IMG/VR virus record: IMGVR_UViG_3300010160_000014
Coordinates: 1 to 34,922 of that record
DNA from: a virus
DNA: 34,922 nt
Strand: one strand, 5' to 3'
In this document: one piece after another, positions 2,751 through 26,193 of the stretch
How positions within the stretch are numbered: the first letter of the stretch is position 1
Layout: every line of letters starts with the position of its first letter
The notes under the pieces: model-generated
The model's input: the letters and a program-made list of their open reading frames with translations, nothing else
Told to the model about the DNA's origin: nothing
The model's database searches: none
Position numbers and translations under genes: made by a program

Positions 2751-3261
2751 TTTTAAAGAGTGTCTTGAGTTAGTATTAAAGTCAGAAGGTGGTTGGACAG
2801 GTGCTAATGGTTTAACTGGCGACCCTGGTGGTGAAACTAATTTAGGCGTTACTAAGCGTGTTTGGGAAGAATGGGTAGGTCACCCTGTGGAGTCCCTTAA
2901 AAACCTCACAAAAGACCAAGTAGCACCCTTATATGAACAAAGATACTGGAGGCCTTGCTATGGAGAAGTATTGCCTAGGGGACTCGACCTTGTTGTCTTT
3001 TCAATGGGAGTTAACGCAGGGCCAGGTAGGTCAGTTAAATTGCTTCAATCAGCTATTGGATGTGTACCTGACGGAGTTATTGGCCCAAAAACAAGAGGAC
3101 TTATTTGTGACTCCAATACTGCAACTCTTATCACTAAATTCTCTGAAGCTAGACGGGAATATTACAAGTCATTAAAAACTTTCCCCATGTTTGGGAAAGG
3201 CTGGCTTGCTAGAGTAGATAAAGAAGAATCAGAAGCACTTAGTCTGGCTAAGAACTCTTGA
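2740..3261 (+). CDS. Endolysin, glycoside hydrolase family 108 type muramidase
   Basis: 173 residues. Residues 8-40 carry the family signature: the catalytic glutamate Glu16 in SEGG, then DPGGETNLGVTKRVW starting at Asp28. The C-terminal part (about 90-165, with AGPGRSVKLLQ and DGVIGPKTRGLI) resembles the peptidoglycan-binding domain that goes with it. Enzymes of this family cut the bond between N-acetylmuramic acid and N-acetylglucosamine. There is no obvious signal sequence, so release should depend on the holin. The start overlaps the Rz end by 11 bases. The 3' end overlaps a minus-strand gene by 33 bases, and I see no terminator between them. Confidence 0.9.
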   Translation: MQGNFKECLELVLKSEGGWTGANGLTGDPGGETNLGVTKRVWEEWVGHPVESLKNLTKDQVAPLYEQRYWRPCYGEVLPRGLDLVVFSMGVNAGPGRSVKLLQSAIGCVPDGVIGPKTRGLICDSNTATLITKFSEARREYYKSLKTFPMFGKGWLARVDKEESEALSLAKNS

Positions 3262-3459
3262 ACCCTTTGTAATCTGTCCTAAAGGCGTTTCTAGGCGTTT
3301 TACACGATTGTCGGGGTGACACACCCACTTATTACCCATACGCTTAATCATGGCCTTAGAATTGGCTTCATTTTGGGCTATTAGCAACTCATACATTTGG
3401 TAGCTAAAGCGCCCAGCTTCAATCATTTGTTTCAATAAATTCTTGTCGTTTTTTGTCAT
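3229..3459 (-). CDS. Small protein of leftward operon, unknown (last gene)
   Basis: 76 residues starting MTKNDKNLLKQMIEAG. The first half is predicted helical; the second half is basic with one Cys-His pair (NKWVCHPDNRVKRLETP). The start ATG shares one base with the stop of the 39-codon gene upstream (TAATG), which supports translation by coupling; no good ribosome-binding site is visible. Its 3' end runs 33 bases into the endolysin gene on the other strand. No family recognised. It is the last member of a six-gene leftward string. Confidence 0.65.
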   Translation of the reverse strand: MTKNDKNLLKQMIEAGRFSYQMYELLIAQNEANSKAMIKRMGNKWVCHPDNRVKRLETPLGQITKGSRVLSQTKCF

Positions 3460-3578
3460 TATTTATTTCTGTGATATTTGTCATTAGGGTTATTAAGCAT
3501 AGATTTAATAAGGTCATTTATATTAAAAAACCATTGAATAACTTTCATGCCATCATGCGTATAGATAGTAAAACTCAT
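3459..3578 (-). CDS. Tiny 39-residue protein of leftward operon, unknown
   Basis: The start ATG (3578-3576) overlaps the stop of the gene upstream as ATGA, and its stop TAA (3461-3459) overlaps the next start as TAATG. Filling the space between two genes exactly, with a stop/start overlap at both ends, is strong evidence that this short frame is translated. The product begins MSFTIYTHDGMKVIQWFFN and ends in a basic tail (DKYHRNK). It has no membrane segment or recognisable motif. Confidence 0.7.
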   Translation of the reverse strand: MSFTIYTHDGMKVIQWFFNINDLIKSMLNNPNDKYHRNK

Positions 3579-3823
3579 CTATCTTTAGCCCACTCATCTA
3601 TTGCTTTATCAAACAAACGCTGCATTTCTGCGTTTTCTTCTTCTTGTTTGCGTAATGTGGCTATTATCCATTCCCCAGCAATCTTGTCTTTAAACCACAA
3701 GTCAGGTGACTTTTCTAATTCATCAGCTAATTCTTTTGCGTTCATTTGTATGCTACCCCCTATTACATTAATGGTGTATGAACCGTCTACTTCTTCAATA
3801 ATTTGGTTATTCAAACAAGTCAT
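3575..3823 (-). CDS. Small acidic protein of leftward operon, unknown
   Basis: 82 residues from ATG 3823. The N-terminal half looks beta-rich (EEVDGSYTINVIGGSIQMNA) and the C-terminal half is a charged helix (LRKQEEENAEMQRLFDKAID). The composition is acidic overall. It overlaps the gene upstream by 17 bases and the 39-codon gene downstream by four. Small acidic phage proteins sometimes act by mimicking DNA or blocking a host protein, but nothing here shows this. No family recognised. Confidence 0.68.
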   Translation of the reverse strand: MTCLNNQIIEEVDGSYTINVIGGSIQMNAKELADELEKSPDLWFKDKIAGEWIIATLRKQEEENAEMQRLFDKAIDEWAKDR

Positions 3824-4046
3824 TTTGTCCCGCTTTTGTTTGTAATGCTTTTAGGTAATTTTTAAGGGCTTTATCGTCTTCCTTAAATATCTTTTGAAAC
3901 AGTTGGTTAGAAGGCATTCTTACTCTGTTTTCATCAAATACACCATGCAATACAAAGCTAGAAAATGCCCTACAAGCTAACTCATCTTTACCGCATTTAT
4001 AAGCTAATTCGCAACCGTCACATGGGCATATTTCATCTAGTTCCAT
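3807..4046 (-). CDS. Small cysteine-rich, possibly zinc-binding protein, unknown
   Basis: 79 residues from ATG 4046, chosen because AAGGG lies just upstream with good spacing; in-frame ATGs at 4064, 4073 and 4079 are possible but reach further into the gene before. The first 30 residues hold five cysteines (MELDEICPCDGCELAYKCG, then ELACRAF), an arrangement that could bind zinc or an iron-sulfur cluster. The rest is a basic helix (LFQKIFKEDDKALKNYLKAL) and an acidic tail. This pattern occurs in small phage proteins of unknown role. Metal binding is inference from cysteine spacing only. Confidence 0.68.
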   Translation of the reverse strand: MELDEICPCDGCELAYKCGKDELACRAFSSFVLHGVFDENRVRMPSNQLFQKIFKEDDKALKNYLKALQTKAGQNDLFE

Positions 4047-4224
4047 TACGCCCTTTTTGGGCATAAAGTTCATACTCAAACTTTTCCCAACAATCTAATT
4101 CATTGCACATTTCGGTAATGTCGTGGTCGCCAATGTAAGCGTATTCTCTTTCACCGTTATAGCCACGCAACTCAATAGTAGTGTTGCCAAAAACTACTGA
4201 ACCAACATAGTGTCCGTCTTTCAT
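4033..4224 (-). CDS. Small protein of leftward operon, unknown
   Basis: 63 residues starting MKDGHYVGSVVFGNTTIELR. ATG 4224 is preferred over a longer frame because GGAAGGGG lies five to twelve bases upstream and because it begins one base after the previous stop (4226). The product looks like a small beta-sheet followed by an acidic helix (HDITEMCNELDCWEKFEYEL). It overlaps the next gene by 14 bases. I recognise no family; function unknown. Confidence 0.68.
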   Translation of the reverse strand: MKDGHYVGSVVFGNTTIELRGYNGEREYAYIGDHDITEMCNELDCWEKFEYELYAQKGRNGTR

Positions 4225-4225
4225 A

Positions 4226-4471
4226 TTAACCCCTTCCAACTTGGTCGTATGTATTCCAATCTTGAATAGCACCTCTTAAAGCAAACGCTTTAGTGTCACC
4301 AGTACCAAAACATGACCACAATGGTGAGTCTTTAATATCGTCTTTGTCGGTTGCGCCATCACCAAGCGCCAAGTAACAACACCATTGTTTGTCACCAGCT
4401 TGGTAAACATTTTCTTCTAATTTAAAACGGTAAGCTATTGAAACATTAGCCCAATCTTTAAAAGTTCGCAT
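4226..4471 (-). CDS. First gene of leftward small-gene operon, unknown
   Basis: 81 residues from ATG 4471, with a strong AAGGGG site seven bases upstream. The sequence begins MRTFKDWANVSIAYRFKLEE and contains CCYLALGDGATDKDDIKDS and SCFGTGDTKAFAL. It is mixed alpha and beta with an acidic middle. It is the promoter-proximal gene, read out of the AT-rich region 4472-4620 that carries repeated TGTATAA words. No family recognised. Confidence 0.68.
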   Translation of the reverse strand: MRTFKDWANVSIAYRFKLEENVYQAGDKQWCCYLALGDGATDKDDIKDSPLWSCFGTGDTKAFALRGAIQDWNTYDQVGRG

Positions 4472-4573
4472 TTAATTCCCCTTAAATGAATACTACAAAT
4501 ACAGTTTAAAACAAAAAGCAATAGAAATATATAGGTGTTTTCCCTAAGTGTTGTATTTTGCCAAACATTAAAA

Positions 4574-4622
4574 ATGTATAAAATATTACACAATTTATAC
4601 ACATAGTCATCAATATGTATAA
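4574..4622. promoter_or_regulatory. Operator-like cluster: three TGTATAA words and an inverted repeat
   Basis: GTATAAA at 4576-4582 and TTTATAC at 4594-4600 form a perfect 7-base inverted repeat around an 11-base centre. The word TGTATAA occurs at 4575-4581 and 4616-4622 on the plus strand and at 4595-4601 on the minus strand. Spacing of about two helical turns between the copies fits a dimeric repressor site. It lies 100-150 bases upstream of the first small leftward gene. The binding protein is unknown; the phage Cro-like protein is one candidate. Confidence 0.4.
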
Positions 4623-4626
4623 GTCT

Positions 4627-4679
4627 TAGACATAACTTGACCAAGGGTGATAGGGAACTATCAGCCGACCCAATGTCTA
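4627..4679. other. Predicted nested stem-loop
   Basis: TAGACAT (4627-4633) can pair with ATGTCTA (4673-4679). Inside it, TGATAG (4648-4653) and CTATCA (4658-4663) pair around a GGAA tetraloop on the plus strand, with two further G-C pairs beyond a single mismatch. A small alternative hairpin, ATGTC/GACAT at 4673-4685, would compete with the outer stem. No T-tract follows, so it is not an ordinary terminator. It could be a leader RNA structure or a protein-binding site. Confidence 0.35.
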
Positions 4680-4866
4680 TGACATCTAGTCCTTCACGAA
4701 GATAATGTTCATTCGATGGAAAGTTTGTATCACCCAAGTCCTTTCCGTCTTGTGTAGTCGCCATTTAACGCTACGAGGCTTGCAATGGGGTTCACACTAG
4801 CCTATCTTTTCTCCCACGCTGGCGATTTAACCACTTAATACGCTTGGGGTGCGGACTGCAATCTTA

Positions 4867-5421
4867 CTACAAATATTTATCTCTATGAAATTCCCCATGA
4901 AAGCCAAAGGTTTGCAAATTAGACAACTCTCTTTCAAAAGAAAAATACCTTGCTAATTCTTCTGGCGCAAACTTAATTCCATTGCTTACAAGGTAATCCC
5001 TATTTAAATGGCAAATAAGGTCATCTTCATTTTTTTCTTTATAAACAAATTTAGGGCTTGATGTTAACTCTAAAAGACGCTTACTGCGTAGGGAGAAACC
5101 CCCATTACCTACACGCAATCTTTCAGGATGCCAAGGCCATACTGCACCTATGTAATCGTAATCTAAAAATTGAGGTTGCCAAGCGCTTGCATTGATTACC
5201 CACCCATCCCATTGGACAATTAAAACAAAGTCCGTCTTGATGTATTTATGCAGTTCTTGAAGCACAAATTTGCTATAGGCTTGACGGCTATTAATGCTGG
5301 CATGGTTTATAAATAAGTCATCACCAAACTGAATATGGCGTTTGCTTATTTCCATAGCTTTTAATGCCAACTCTGGTTGTACCGAGTCTATAGCACAAAT
5401 GGTTACATTACTCAGTTTCAT
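4867..5421 (-). CDS. DUF5672-like putative glycosyltransferase
   Basis: 184 residues from ATG 5421; a TTG twelve bases further upstream is less likely. The signature stretches are FVLIVQWDGWV (65-75), DYDYIGAVWPWHPE (87-100) and RVGNGGFSLRSKRL (103-116), which match the family found in bacterial polysaccharide clusters and some phages. It has a glycosyltransferase-like layout, with the QWDG acids likely at the active site. The substrate is unknown: host surface sugar, virion protein or modified DNA are all possible. It overlaps the Cro-like gene by 14 bases. Such genes are usually late or accessory, so sharing a transcript with a regulator is notable. Confidence 0.75.
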   Translation of the reverse strand: MKLSNVTICAIDSVQPELALKAMEISKRHIQFGDDLFINHASINSRQAYSKFVLQELHKYIKTDFVLIVQWDGWVINASAWQPQFLDYDYIGAVWPWHPERLRVGNGGFSLRSKRLLELTSSPKFVYKEKNEDDLICHLNRDYLVSNGIKFAPEELARYFSFERELSNLQTFGFHGEFHRDKYL

Positions 5422-5683
5422 TTTTAGTGCCAAATGCGTTGTTTTTAAGCAACTCAGGCCATATAAGCCAAAAGCTAGTAGGAAATAAGTCTTGCCTGGT
5501 TACTAAACCATGACTTTCTGTTTCAATTCTTGCGCCCAAAAACATATATTTGTCGGCTGGAATACCTCTAATACGCCAATTAGATACGGCAGCAGGGTCT
5601 ACTTTGCACATTCTAGCCACCTTTGCTGTACCACCTAGTAGGTCAATAATTGCCGTGTCGGTTAGTTTTAATTTTGTGTCCAT
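5408..5683 (-). CDS. Cro/YdaS-like helix-turn-helix regulator
   Basis: 91 residues. A helix-turn-helix lies at about 17-38 (GGTAKVARMCKVDPAAVSNW), followed by RIRGIPADKYMFLG, the typical Cro/YdaS ending of the DNA-binding domain. The remaining half (GLVTRQDLFPTSFWLIWPEL) is a common extension of these small phage regulators. It should bind operators as a dimer and act as the early switch. It is divergent from the rightward early operon across 109 bases that contain inverted repeats. No ribosome-binding site is obvious before ATG 5683. There is no larger CI-like partner or integrase, so this is not evidence of lysogeny. Confidence 0.82.
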   Translation of the reverse strand: MDTKLKLTDTAIIDLLGGTAKVARMCKVDPAAVSNWRIRGIPADKYMFLGARIETESHGLVTRQDLFPTSFWLIWPELLKNNAFGTKNETE

Positions 5684-5792: not shown

Positions 5793-6002
5793 ATGGATGA
5801 AATGGCACAGGTAATGATGGAAGTAGAAGAACGCTTGGAAATAGCGTTAGACAACATGGAATACGGCACAGAATTGTCGCAAGACGATGTGGATGTAATT
5901 CGTGCAGCGTGTGGCAAACCCAACAACAAACGCAATGTTTTGTTGCAAGAAGTGTTTAATGATTTTGGAAATGTATTTGGAGGTAAAAATGCCTCAATCT
6001 GA
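5793..6002 (+). CDS. First early gene: small acidic helical protein, unknown
   Basis: 69 residues, mostly helical and acidic in the first 40 (MDEMAQVMMEVEERLEIALD, then ELSQDDVDVIRAACGK), with a short aromatic, basic end. It has a clean GGGAG site eight bases before ATG 5793 and overlaps the ERF gene by 14 bases. Its place just upstream of the recombination genes suggests an early role. No family recognised. Confidence 0.72.
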   Translation: MDEMAQVMMEVEERLEIALDNMEYGTELSQDDVDVIRAACGKPNNKRNVLLQEVFNDFGNVFGGKNASI

Positions 6003-6429
6003 TTCTATTAAAGAACTCGCAACCGCATTGTCTAAAGTTCAAGGGGAACTCACTTATGCTAAAAAAGATTCAGCAAATCCTTTCTTCAAATCTCGGTATG
6101 CTGATTTGGAGTCTGTTTGGGATGCTTGTCGTAGTCTTATGGCTGCAAACGGTCTTAGTGTTATCCAAATGCCTGGCAACTACTTTGAAGGGCGTATGTG
6201 GCTGGTAACACGCCTATGCCATAACTCTGGCGAATGGATTGAACAAGAAATGTCTGTGCCTGTCCAAAAGGCAGACGCACAAGGCGCAGGGTCAGCATTA
6301 ACTTATATGCGTAGATATGCGCTGGCAGCATTTATTGGTGTAGTACAAGCTGATGATGATGGCAATGCTGCATCACAGCAAATTAAACCAACATTAAAAC
6401 CTGTAGCAAAACCTGTGGAGATGATTTGA
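5989..6429 (+). CDS. erf: ERF-family single-strand annealing protein
   Basis: 146 residues from ATG 5989, which follows GGAGG at 5979-5983; a longer frame upstream has no ribosome-binding site and reads the previous gene out of frame. The family core is clear: LSKVQGELTYAKKDSANPFF (14-33), SRYADLESVW (35-44), QGAGSALTYMRRYALAAFIG (98-117) and the acidic DDDGN at 122-126. ERF proteins form rings that anneal complementary DNA, and in P22 they circularise the genome and promote recombination. At 146 residues it is shorter than P22 Erf (about 200) and lacks most of the C-terminal domain. It leads a module with the SSB-like and nuclease genes that follow. Confidence 0.9.
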   Translation: MPQSDSIKELATALSKVQGELTYAKKDSANPFFKSRYADLESVWDACRSLMAANGLSVIQMPGNYFEGRMWLVTRLCHNSGEWIEQEMSVPVQKADAQGAGSALTYMRRYALAAFIGVVQADDDGNAASQQIKPTLKPVAKPVEMI

Positions 6430-6683
6430 TGGCTTTTCAACCTAAAGAAGGTAGCGGTAACCTTTTCAAAAATACCCGCAAAACAAGCGAAACCCACCCA
6501 GACTACACAGGTTCAATTATGAACAATGGCAAAGAACATTGGTTGTCTGCATGGGTTAAAGAAGGTAAGAACGGCAAATACTTTAGCGTTTCTATTGGTA
6601 AAGAAAAGTTACCAATGGGTTTTAAAGAAGCTGGCGCTGATGAATTACCTAAAAACACCATTGAAGATGATGTACCATTTTAG
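6429..6683 (+). CDS. Small single-strand-DNA-binding-like protein with SSB-type tail
   Basis: 84 residues; ATG 6429 overlaps the ERF stop by one base (TGATG). The middle (HWLSAWVKEGKNGKYFSVSI) is a beta-strand pattern like that of DUF736-type phage proteins. The last residues, IEDDVPF, closely resemble the acidic DDIPF tip of bacterial SSB, the tail that recruits many replication and repair proteins. With an annealase before it and a RecB-like nuclease after it, a single-strand-binding or SSB-mimic role is likely. I infer this from tail and context; an OB fold is not proven. Confidence 0.65.
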   Translation: MAFQPKEGSGNLFKNTRKTSETHPDYTGSIMNNGKEHWLSAWVKEGKNGKYFSVSIGKEKLPMGFKEAGADELPKNTIEDDVPF

Positions 6684-6912: not shown

Positions 6913-7653
6913 ATGGCTGACCATTGGTATTGTGGAAACACAGGCGAACCACGCTATACAATTATTGGTAAAAACGGTAAAGAACGCAACACCAATATAA
7001 AAGACGCTAGAGAATTAGGGTTAGTACCTAGTGTCACTACAATTAATTCTATGTTGTCTAAATCGGGCCTAGATACTTGGAAACAAACCCAAGTGCTATA
7101 CGCTGCTGTTGAATATCCAAGATGGGAAAACGAAGATGAAAAAGAATGGGTATCAAGAATACTTGACCTTGCAAAAGGAAAAAGCAGGGAAGCTGCACAA
7201 AGGGGTACTAATATCCACGACATTTTGGATAGTTACTTCTCTAATGTTTATTTACCTGAGTGGCCTACTTATATCGCTAGGGTTCAAACTCATCTTGACA
7301 GCACCTTTGGAAAACGCCAATGGGTGTCAGAACAGTCTTTTAAACACCCCGAAGGTTATGGTGGCAAAGTCGATTTGTACTGTAAGGCCGACAATAACCT
7401 GCCTGGCGTAATAATTGACTTCAAGACCACGGAGAAATCCCCTGGTGAACTAACACCCTACTATGAGTATACATTGCAGCTTGCAGCCTATAGAGAGGCC
7501 TTAGTGCCTGATGCAATATGCGCTAATGTGTTTATAAATGGGGAAACAAGTGAGGTTGCGGTAAAAATTCATAAGGAACAAGAACTTAAAGATGGGTATG
7601 AGGCTTTTCTGTCTTTATTGAAAGTATTTAAACTTAAAAATAAGCTAAACTAG
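6913..7653 (+). CDS. RecB-like PD-(D/E)XK exonuclease
   Basis: 246 residues. The nuclease motifs fall in order: His102 in RGTNIHDIL, Glu140 in SEQSF, Asp154 in GGKVDLY, Asp169 and Lys171 in IIDFKTT, and Gln189/Tyr193 in LQLAAY. This is the RecB/Cas4-type fold; phage members degrade DNA from ends and supply single strands to an annealase. The nearby ERF protein is its natural partner, as exonuclease and annealase pair in Red-like systems. The ATG follows AAAGGGG at 6900-6906. It is a short, single-domain form with no helicase. Details of polarity or endonuclease activity cannot be read from sequence. Confidence 0.85.
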   Translation: MADHWYCGNTGEPRYTIIGKNGKERNTNIKDARELGLVPSVTTINSMLSKSGLDTWKQTQVLYAAVEYPRWENEDEKEWVSRILDLAKGKSREAAQRGTNIHDILDSYFSNVYLPEWPTYIARVQTHLDSTFGKRQWVSEQSFKHPEGYGGKVDLYCKADNNLPGVIIDFKTTEKSPGELTPYYEYTLQLAAYREALVPDAICANVFINGETSEVAVKIHKEQELKDGYEAFLSLLKVFKLKNKLN

Positions 7654-7658
7654 ATTAC

Positions 7659-7717
7659 GGGGTGGTTTATGGTTTCCCCTTCCATTACTCCTTCACACGA
7701 GGCCACCCCACCTTTTT
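7659..7717 (+). terminator. Possible terminator with long loop after exonuclease gene
   Basis: GGGGTGG (7659-7665) can pair with CCACCCC (7703-7709), and five T residues follow at 7713-7717. The loop of 37 bases is long for an intrinsic terminator, so efficiency may be low. It sits right after the exonuclease stop and before a non-coding stretch. Confidence 0.4.
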
Positions 7718-7912
7718 ATCAAGGCGTTAAGCCACCATTGTAGGATGCAGTAAGTTAGGGTTTTTGTGGCTTTCCACCTAACGGGTAGCAACTGCCAAAT
7801 ACAGCCTTGTCGTATTTAGGCAACTTAGGGTAAATAAGTAGTGACAATAGGGGAATGTAGTAATAAATTGTAATGACTCACTAACGAGTAATCATTTAAA
7901 GGGGAAACTTAA
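7718..7912 (+). other. Non-coding leader with two adjacent hairpins and possible promoter
   Basis: About 195 bases without a convincing gene. Hairpin A: GTTAGG (7754-7759) pairs with CCTAAC (7777-7782), with GTGG/CCAC available inside as an alternative stem. Hairpin B: TGCCAAATAC (7793-7802) pairs with GTATTTAGGCA (7812-7822) with one bulged A and a 9-base loop. Neither has a T-tract. GTGACA at 7841 with TAAATT at 7864 (17-base spacer) is a weak promoter candidate. AAAGGGG at 7898-7904 serves the next gene. It could be a small RNA or a structured leader of the exported protein gene. Confidence 0.4.
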
Positions 7913-8242
7913 ATGGAATCAAATTTCTTAAAAATCGTATTAGGTATTGCTGCTGGCTTTTTATTATGTTTGCATACAATAGAACCAAAAGCACAGGCTT
8001 TATATGGCCCACAAGGTCAATATTTAGGCAACATTCAACAGTCTGGCAATACTGCCAACTACTATGGCCCACAAGGTCAATACCAAGGCAGCGCTACCAC
8101 TAACAATGGTCAGACCAACTTTTACGGTGCTAACGGTGCTTACCAAGGTACTTATCAAAACCAAGTACAACCAAACTACACACCATACGCACCATACATA
8201 CCACAACAACCTTTACAGCCACAAATGCCTAGGGGATATTAA
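7913..8242 (+). CDS. Exported protein with 20-residue tandem repeats, unknown
   Basis: 109 residues. Residues 7-29 form a signal peptide (KIVLGIAAGFLLCLHTIEPK, ending AQA at 27-29) with a likely cleavage site after Ala29. The mature part holds three copies of a 20-residue unit starting YGPQGQYLG, YGPQGQYQG and YGANGAYQG, then a Gln/Pro/Tyr-rich tail. At DNA level the units start at 8003, 8063 and 8123, an exact 60-base period, and the first two share 20 identical bases. It should be secreted to the periplasm or beyond. Among replication genes this is out of place and suggests a moron-like role at the cell envelope, such as exclusion of other phages; that is speculation. Confidence 0.78.
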   Translation: MESNFLKIVLGIAAGFLLCLHTIEPKAQALYGPQGQYLGNIQQSGNTANYYGPQGQYQGSATTNNGQTNFYGANGAYQGTYQNQVQPNYTPYAPYIPQQPLQPQMPRGY

Positions 8243-8433: not shown

Positions 8434-8668
8434 AGAAAACCCTGATGGTTCTGCTGATGTCAATGTGCGCTATGACAAAAAAGGTTTAGAATTTTTGGTT
8501 CAGCAAGGCTTAACAGCAACAATGGTAGAAGCTATTGTCCAATATCAAACAGGGGAGAAATACAATGTTTGCGACATTCTGGGGACTTTACCCAAAAAAA
8601 GTAGCAAAGGGGGCAGCGATAAAAGCGTGGGTAAAATTAAAACCAGAAGAACACCGAGAAGTGATTGA
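8408..8668 (+). CDS. Small basic-tailed protein overlapping initiator-like gene, unknown
   Basis: 86 residues from ATG 8408, with GAGGT just upstream. The first part is beta-like (MLIKIVKIKENPDGSADVNV), then a helix (GLEFLVQQGLTATMVEAIVQ), then a Ser/Gly/Lys/Arg-rich tail. The tail is read across 104 bases of the next gene, so its composition partly reflects that overlap. The N-terminal domain is likely the functional part. No family recognised. Confidence 0.62.
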   Translation: MLIKIVKIKENPDGSADVNVRYDKKGLEFLVQQGLTATMVEAIVQYQTGEKYNVCDILGTLPKKSSKGGSDKSVGKIKTRRTPRSD

Positions 8669-8936
8669 TGCCCTTGCAAGTCATATAAAATACTGGAGGG
8701 TCAAAGGCACAGATAAGGAGTTTATTCCTTACCCAGCTTCTTGGCTTAATCAAATGCGTTGGCTTGATGAATTAGACTTTGAACCGCCTAAAAAGCCAGC
8801 ATTACCTTGGTATTCATCGGAAGAATTAACACTTGCTAAAGCATTTGAACTTGGAATTACTCCCTACGCAGGAGAGTCATACGCCCAATTACGACAAAGA
8901 ATTTCAACACAAATCAGCCGTCAGGCAACTGTGTAA
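8565..8936 (+). CDS. Replication-initiator C-terminal-domain-like protein
   Basis: 123 residues from ATG 8565, preceded by AGGGGAG at 8551-8557. The first 70 residues match the domain that usually closes phage replication proteins of the O/DnaT type: FWGLYPKKVAKGAAIKAWVK, then a helix, then FIPYPASWLNQMRW with an acidic end (DELDFE). In those proteins the domain helps load helicase or bind a partner. Here it stands alone, without the N-terminal DNA-binding part. The last 50 residues are specific to this phage. It is the only candidate for recruiting host replication enzymes. Context: early operon, before the methyltransferase. Confidence 0.68.
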   Translation: MFATFWGLYPKKVAKGAAIKAWVKLKPEEHREVIDALASHIKYWRVKGTDKEFIPYPASWLNQMRWLDELDFEPPKKPALPWYSSEELTLAKAFELGITPYAGESYAQLRQRISTQISRQATV

Positions 8937-25218: not shown

Positions 25219-26193
25219 ATGGCATACGCTAACTCAGCGATTACCGATATTATCGCAACGACTATTCAAAGCCGTAGCGGTGAATTGGCAGATAACTTAA
25301 CAGAAAACAATGCAATCCTGCAACGCCTGAACAGCAAGGGTAATGTACGCCCATTCTCAGGTGGTAATGTGATTTTGGAAGAAATCATGTACAACGACCC
25401 AAATACTAATAACGCTAATTCTTATAGCGGTTACGAAGTATTGAACATTGCCCCAGATAGCCCTATCTCTGCTGCACAATTTAAAATTGCACAGTACGCA
25501 GATTCAGTAACAATGTCTGGTTTAGAAATGTTGCAAAACAGCAGCAAAGAAGCAATCATTGACCTTTTAGATGGTCGTATGCAAGTTTCTGAAGCACGCT
25601 TGTTAAACCGCATTTCTGGTGACTTGTACCTTGATGGTACAGGTAACGGTGGTAAGAACTTGGATGGTCTAGGCGCTGCTGTTTCAGCAACTCCTACAAC
25701 TGGCACATACGGTGGTATTAATGCTGCTAACTGGACTTTCTGGCGTAACCAAATCACTACTGGCGCTACTGCTAACACAATGTTGGCTTCTATGACTACT
25801 GCTGCTATCAAGCAGATTCGTGGCACAGACAAAGCTGACCTTATCGTAGCTGGTAACACAATGTACCAATATTATGTTGGCGCATTGCAAGCTATTCAGC
25901 GTATTGCTTCTGAAGAATCTGGTGCTGCTGGATTTGCTTCATTGAAGTTCTACGGTGGTGGTACTTCTGCTGATGTGGTATTAGGTGGTGGTTATGGTTC
26001 ACAAGAAACAGCTACATATATGTATTTCTTGAACACTAACTACATTTTCTTCCGTCCACATAAAGACCGCAACTTTGTACCTATCGGTGGCGAACGCCAA
26101 GCGATTAACCAAGATGCGATTGTTAAGTTGTATGGTTTTGCAGGTAACCTTACAACTTCTAACCGCTTCCTACAAGGCTTGTTGACAACCTAA
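25219..26193 (+). CDS. Major capsid protein
   Basis: 324 residues. Recognisable parts are IIATTIQSRSGELADNLTEN, then ILQRLNSKGNVRPFSGGNVI, SGYEVLNIAPDSPISAAQF, then VTMSGLEMLQNSSKEAIIDL and LDGTGNGGKNLDGL, a pattern I know from podovirus coat proteins with a presumed HK97 fold. The end is a beta-rich part (NYIFFRPHKDRNFVPIGGER). The leader AAAGGAAATATC before ATG 25219 is repeated before the next gene. Position after scaffold and before a decoration-like gene supports the call. Confidence 0.9.
   Translation: MAYANSAITDIIATTIQSRSGELADNLTENNAILQRLNSKGNVRPFSGGNVILEEIMYNDPNTNNANSYSGYEVLNIAPDSPISAAQFKIAQYADSVTMSGLEMLQNSSKEAIIDLLDGRMQVSEARLLNRISGDLYLDGTGNGGKNLDGLGAAVSATPTTGTYGGINAANWTFWRNQITTGATANTMLASMTTAAIKQIRGTDKADLIVAGNTMYQYYVGALQAIQRIASEESGAAGFASLKFYGGGTSADVVLGGGYGSQETATYMYFLNTNYIFFRPHKDRNFVPIGGERQAINQDAIVKLYGFAGNLTTSNRFLQGLLTT

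Follow-up and report, generated by a model that had tools for sequence, protein, structure and literature searches.

In the leftward early (pL) operons of phages P22 and lambda, small accessory genes come after the recombination genes, and a Cro-like gene diverges from them. In P22, the small genes beside erf serve the recombination/replication machinery or the control of phage transcription. The early region described here comes from an uncultured, podovirus-like lake phage, represented by a 34,922-base IMG/VR virus record that has no completeness estimate and is referred to below, at its full length, as the window. The phage family to which it belongs resembles P22 and lambda in that recombination genes are followed by small accessory genes, with a Cro-like gene divergent from them, but is unlike them in that the small genes have a conserved control region of their own, which is kept when the neighbouring block of genes is inverted. 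The Podoviridae sp. isolate ctn9Y15 (MW202674.1, Manatee Spring) is organised like the usual, non-inverted relatives of the window, with lysozyme, a small leftward gene, nuclease, SSB and ERF on the minus strand, and a Cro-similar stretch followed by replication genes on the plus strand. It carries AAATACAACACTT before its small gene, but differs in that this gene is single and encodes a protein of 94 aa with no cysteines. Structured RNA in phage early transcripts has a precedent in the put RNA of HK022 (PMC9378689), although the two RNAs found here are unlike put in being mutually dissimilar in sequence, in lying at the 3' ends of the arms and in having no Rfam match. Titles and opening abstract lines of publications on structured RNAs in phages, inverted early regions and small genes with anti-defence roles revealed nothing with this arrangement. 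Elsewhere in the window, the major capsid protein (25219-26193) is 49-51% identical to those of Myxococcus phage Mx8, Bradyrhizobium phage ppBjS10J-1 and Stenotrophomonas phage BUCT555; the annotated early region of BUCT555 differs from that of the window.

Six coupled ORFs on the minus strand, genes A-F, span positions 3229-4471 and encode proteins of 81 (A, 4226..4471), 63 (B, 4033..4224), 79 (C, 3807..4046), 82 (D, 3575..3823), 39 (E, 3459..3578) and 76 aa (F, 3229..3459). Genes A and B are 1 nt apart, whereas overlaps of 14 nt (B/C), 17 nt (C/D), 4 nt (D/E, ATGA) and 1 nt (E/F, TAATG) join the others; gene F, the last of the operon, also shares 33 nt with the end of the endolysin gene. An earlier note, made from the DNA letters alone, had described such a packed leftward series, and the ORF sizes, gaps and overlaps are as it claimed, as is the ribosome-binding site, AAGGGG, that precedes gene A. 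Comparison with relatives gives dN/dS values of 0.03-0.42 in 17 of 18 gene-by-relative comparisons, beyond what chance would produce, the sole outlier being gene F against L007 (1.2, resting on six changes). Because this is the signature of purifying selection, A-F are real genes, and all six are coding. A 109-aa ORF at 4435-4764 was not accepted as a gene, since what it shares with relatives at the protein level stems from a structured RNA, RNA2, in which gaps break the frame. The operon had also been placed on the opposite strand from its neighbours; this holds for the lysis genes and from ERF onwards, but not for the DUF5672 and Cro genes, which lie directly upstream on the same strand.

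These neighbours form a central block comprising the DUF5672 protein (4867..5433, minus), a Cro/YdaS-like regulator (5408..5683, minus), an ERF single-strand annealing protein (5902..6429, plus), an SSB-like protein (6426..6683, plus) and a PD-(D/E)XK exonuclease-like protein (6913..7653, plus). Beyond its right junction lie g16 (7913-8242) and the replication-initiation gene (8535-8936). Relatives were collected by a scan with gene A, which gave three contigs, and a scan with the endolysin, from which the best 80 of 595 relatives were taken; the first set comprised 84 loci and the window (85 records, of which L001 repeats the window and L002 repeats L006). In the usual order, endolysin, small genes, exonuclease, p66, SSB and ERF are on the minus strand, followed on the plus strand by Cro, an accessory gene, g16 and the replication genes. 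This order is found in 54 of the 85 records, while 9 (seven distinct contigs, the window included) are inverted and 22 could not be told. Thus 54 of the 61 orientable contigs have ERF, SSB and exonuclease upstream of the small genes on the same strand with Cro divergent, as in a pL operon, an order that the inversion has broken in the window. In an enlarged set of 228 examined, 11 records representing eight distinct contigs are inverted (the window, L006, L007, L008, L009, L011, L050 and, from the later loci, L200) and 180 are not, contig repeats being kept in these counts. Gene maps of the relatives place a member of the gene C family between the endolysin and the early block, on the minus strand, and the small genes retain their own control region in both arrangements of the block.

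Each end of the central block is capped by what is apparently an undescribed structured RNA. RNA1 (7721..7808, plus) is an 88-nt element with a pseudoknot between a hairpin loop and an internal loop, and is found 3' of the exonuclease gene in 154 of the 159 loci holding both. Its five helices, one of which crosses two others, were proposed after reading the alignment; in 40 sequences 98.7% of cells are paired and 12 of 26 pairs have changed on both sides, and none of 500 shuffles was as good on these pairing measures. Since its G-U pairs fit the exonuclease strand, we take this to be the strand of the RNA. A terminator-like hairpin (7659..7709, plus) lies between exonuclease and RNA1, which therefore stands after the hairpin and not before it; an antiterminator of the HK022 put type would act in cis on terminators downstream of itself. 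RNA2 (4625..4860, minus; about 235 nt) is a conserved element located 3' of the Cro-DUF5672 arm, and lies 3' of the Cro arm in 48 of 50 records. In 13 sequences 95.5% of cells are paired and 23 of 48 pairs have changed on both sides, with none of 500 shuffles as high; the structure was predicted from the alignment on which it was then counted, a bias in its favour, although slid controls score far below it. When 28 sequences were aligned separately, 21 of 46 pairs had changed on both sides. Rfam gave no gathering-level match in the window, and nothing credible for either RNA at relaxed thresholds. Patterns for the two RNAs matched at least 119 (RNA1) and 41 (RNA2) IMG/VR stretches, whereas a DNA search of phage records found neither and a gapped RNA1 pattern had no match in bacterial and archaeal species genomes. 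These are, then, two strongly covarying RNAs carried by many uncultured phages.

The upstream region of the small-gene operon had been called operator-bearing, and two palindromes in it do recur ahead of the same operon in relatives. One, of 26 nt, is TATACATATTGATGACTATGTGTATA (4596..4621, minus), which lies at the left inversion junction; the other, TTAGGG..CCTAT with consensus TTAGGGTTTRTCCCTAA (4531..4547, minus), is 76 nt before gene A. A further element, CAACACTTAGGG (4542..4553, minus), stands ahead of gene A and is shared with the other outer operon, where it appears as CAACTTAGGG (7821..7830, plus) ahead of g16 and the replication-initiation gene. Among 98 distinct upstream regions, a TTAGGG..CCCTAA palindrome is present in 45 (shuffled mean 1.5), a AAATACAACACTTAGGG-like motif in 23 (shuffled mean 1.5) and a TATACATATTGATACCTATATGTATA-like motif in 11 (shuffled mean 0.2); 41 have none of the three. 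The pattern CAAC(AC)TTAGGG, which was picked after inspection of the data and is guarded by strand and 5' controls, is found in the 700 nt that follow RNA1 on its 3' side at 64 of 136 distinct loci (two on the opposite strand, none in the 700 nt 5') and is absent from the other 72. For RNA2, the same 3' interval contains it at 28 of 33 distinct loci, with none on the opposite strand or 5'. The element therefore heads the small-gene and the g16/replication operons in either orientation of the block, and the small-gene operon is less isolated than it appears, having a control element in common with the replication operon. A scan with the sigma-70 consensus found no minus-strand site at the operon head, and sites were not in excess over shuffles. 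Nevertheless, the small genes' own control elements and the terminator-like hairpin argue for a separate transcription start. The 26-nt palindrome was considered as a recombination site and rejected; because it usually occupies a single end, and some loci carry tandem copies of it 33 nt apart, we read it as an operator. In L191, L218, L219, L141 and L189 the palindromic sites 3' of RNA1 are in tandem with 33-nt spacing, as if a protein bound one face of the DNA.

We conclude, with a probability of about 0.6, that A-F form the outer operon on the left side of an early region built of three units, and encode early small proteins beside a centre that has been inverted in some lineages. The centre unit would be divergent, with Cro and an accessory gene read one way and ERF, SSB, p66 and exonuclease the other, each arm terminating in its own structured RNA (RNA2 for the Cro arm, RNA1 for the exonuclease arm). 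The small-gene and g16/replication operons would be the outer units and, since both are headed by CAAC(AC)TTAGGG, are probably switched together. Because each unit is self-contained, the centre could have been inverted in some lineages with the small genes keeping their control. The product of gene C would be a conserved protein that binds metal and is probably required in most infections, and the accessory proteins of the operon a changing set that probably acts on the host, in takeover or counter-defence. Early timing, transcription and regulation, like metal binding and the functions of the proteins in this scheme, are what we infer from sequence. The scheme turns a list of tiny genes into a testable architecture, in which the shared control element offers a handle for purifying a regulator.

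The gene content of relatives separates gene C from the others. Matches in tblastn searches of the 85 records (two of which repeat the window and L006) are found for C in 69, E in 22, B in 17, F in 12 and D in 12, five of these last being strong with the window and repeats counted; beyond the window and L006, only L007 has a strong match to D. Gene A is rare, in six records that represent three contigs besides the window. The interval from endolysin to block is complete in 61 loci, where it measures 830-2741 nt (median 1613) and holds 2-10 leftward ORFs. These intervals contain 52 families, of which 26 occur once, with the gene C family in 56 intervals and the gene B family in 26; the family counts are approximate because they come from single-linkage BLAST clustering of mechanically chosen ORFs. 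Gene C is therefore near-core and the other genes accessory. Three loci (L025, L030 and L035) have no called C gene, and in its stead their small-gene operon has a member of the g16 family.

Gene C is also the product for which five cysteines had been noted. Four of them (C9, C12, C18 and C25) are constant in 43 sequences, in an invariant PC-x2-C-x5-C-x5-AC motif, and the quartet, of the kind seen in four-cysteine zinc-binding proteins, is a probable metal site. Its predicted structure is helical (pLDDT 70), with no match in the PDB; its best structural match is BFVD A0A6J5P6M6, a 79-aa protein of an uncultured phage (E 2.8e-3), and phrog_1664 matches seven of the 43 family members (best E 0.0019). 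Bacterial and archaeal species genomes gave 15 pattern candidates for gene C relatives, none of them confirmed. Gene B is predicted to have three strands and two helices (pLDDT 85), and a fold search gave no convincing match (best VIA-align Z 2.8); neither the B nor the C protein has a match in 50,697 phage records. The products had been said to belong to no known family, and searches of PHROGs, Pfam, NCBIfam and PADLOC indeed gave no convincing match. In NCBIfam and PADLOC nothing for A-F was better than E 0.02, and no homology to a known inhibitor or defence-associated family was found. We rejected three hits as chance-level: TIGR04540 (NCBIfam) for gene D (E 0.02), the best PHROGs hit for gene B (0.028) and Pfam TIP120 for gene C (0.028).

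Presence in 56 of 61 intervals makes a core-like phage function attractive for gene C, which is too constant for a purely accessory role. It is possible, though less likely than not, that C and its neighbours are phage housekeeping genes that aid recombination or replication or regulate phage transcription, as in P22. The invariant cysteine motif, the position of C directly 3' of ERF-SSB-exonuclease in most relatives and the control element held in common with the replication operon all point this way; the other five genes, however, are rare or variable, and fold and family matches are absent. The opposite extreme, that every small protein inhibits some host defence system, we consider unlikely. 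Small size, quick turnover, the movement of families between arms and the unmatched folds of B and C would suit it, but the defence models of PADLOC and NCBIfam are unmatched, other host-takeover roles would fit the same features, and C, being nearly constant, resembles a conserved function of the phage rather than an anti-defence gene subject to swapping. The earlier note's proposal of a host-takeover or counter-defence island thus survives in part. Separate control, unfamiliar families, fast turnover and linkage to recombination genes in most relatives speak for it, and the small-gene features fit early host-acting proteins, counter-defence being one of several possible host-directed roles; the constancy of C and the unmatched defence families do not suit an anti-defence island.

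Our preferred reading, with its changing accessory set, receives further shape from exchange between the arms. Eight families (5, 8, 16, 65, 112, 114, 136 and 149) are found in both outer arms. Relatives of the usual order carry gene E on the plus strand of the replication arm; in the window, L006 and L007 it belongs to the small-gene operon. L226, which is of the usual orientation, has gene A in the other early arm, 3' of RNA2, and was flagged for this reason among the 180 non-inverted records. Small genes usable from either operon are most simply understood as independent small effectors, and would make up a mobile accessory set common to two operons, leaving the near-core, four-cysteine gene C as the first target for study.

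The junctions of the inverted block in the window lie near 4596-4640 on the left and near 7808-7834 on the right, the right junction being visible in the main inverted group only. Long inverted repeats were not found at the junctions, the longest exact match in the window being 9 nt; across 27 loci it is 9-12 nt in 22 and 14-17 nt in five, and the longer matches, read by eye, are palindrome or ribosome-binding-site/start sequence. Inverted recombination sites of the Gin/Hin type at both junctions were likewise not found in these 27 loci. Since flanking invertase-type repeats are absent, the inversion is better described as rearrangement of a self-contained cassette than as a proven switch. In the first set, the lysin and ERF trees each need two changes of orientation and the Cro tree five (three forced by well-supported branches). 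With more loci, five changes are needed on the ERF tree, where L050 and L200 stand outside the main inverted group and L106, of usual orientation, inside it; a single change suffices for an exonuclease tree from which L050 and L200 are missing. This puts the inverted order in at least three lineages, so that either the inversion would have happened repeatedly or modules would have been exchanged. The block of the window, as seen in the identical block of L006, is 87.5% identical to that of L106 over 1.8 kb, in opposite orientation.

Could the inversion be a programmed switch, changing which outer operon is paired with RNA1 and which with RNA2? The scattering of inverted contigs over the ERF tree, the position of the junctions just 3' of each RNA and the presence of CAAC..TTAGGG at both block ends in opposite orientation would favour this, as would L038, which has the 26-nt palindrome at both ends. 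It is nonetheless improbable, given the lack of long inverted repeats and the single change needed by the exonuclease tree; moreover, no near-identical pair of contigs in opposite orientations was found and no recombinase was identified. That the inverted order is an assembly artefact is scarcely credible, for although all the sequences are metagenome contigs, seven contigs besides the window, from seven IMG datasets, have the same order as far as each reaches, and they are spread over at least three regions of the ERF tree.

A further, tentative reading is that RNA1 and RNA2 represent two new classes of cis- or trans-acting phage RNA, and that inversion of the block swaps which of them precedes the host-takeover operon and which the replication operon. 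If this is true, the swap would be a heritable re-wiring of early gene control.

Two smaller observations concern the exchange of genes in this family. In L006 the ERF, Cro and six island proteins are identical to those of the window and the endolysin is only about 94-96% identical, a divergence that is mosaic exchange. Beside Cro, the slot occupied in the window by the DUF5672 gene holds other genes of 240-280 aa in relatives (families 62, 66 and 109), and is a second accessory slot.
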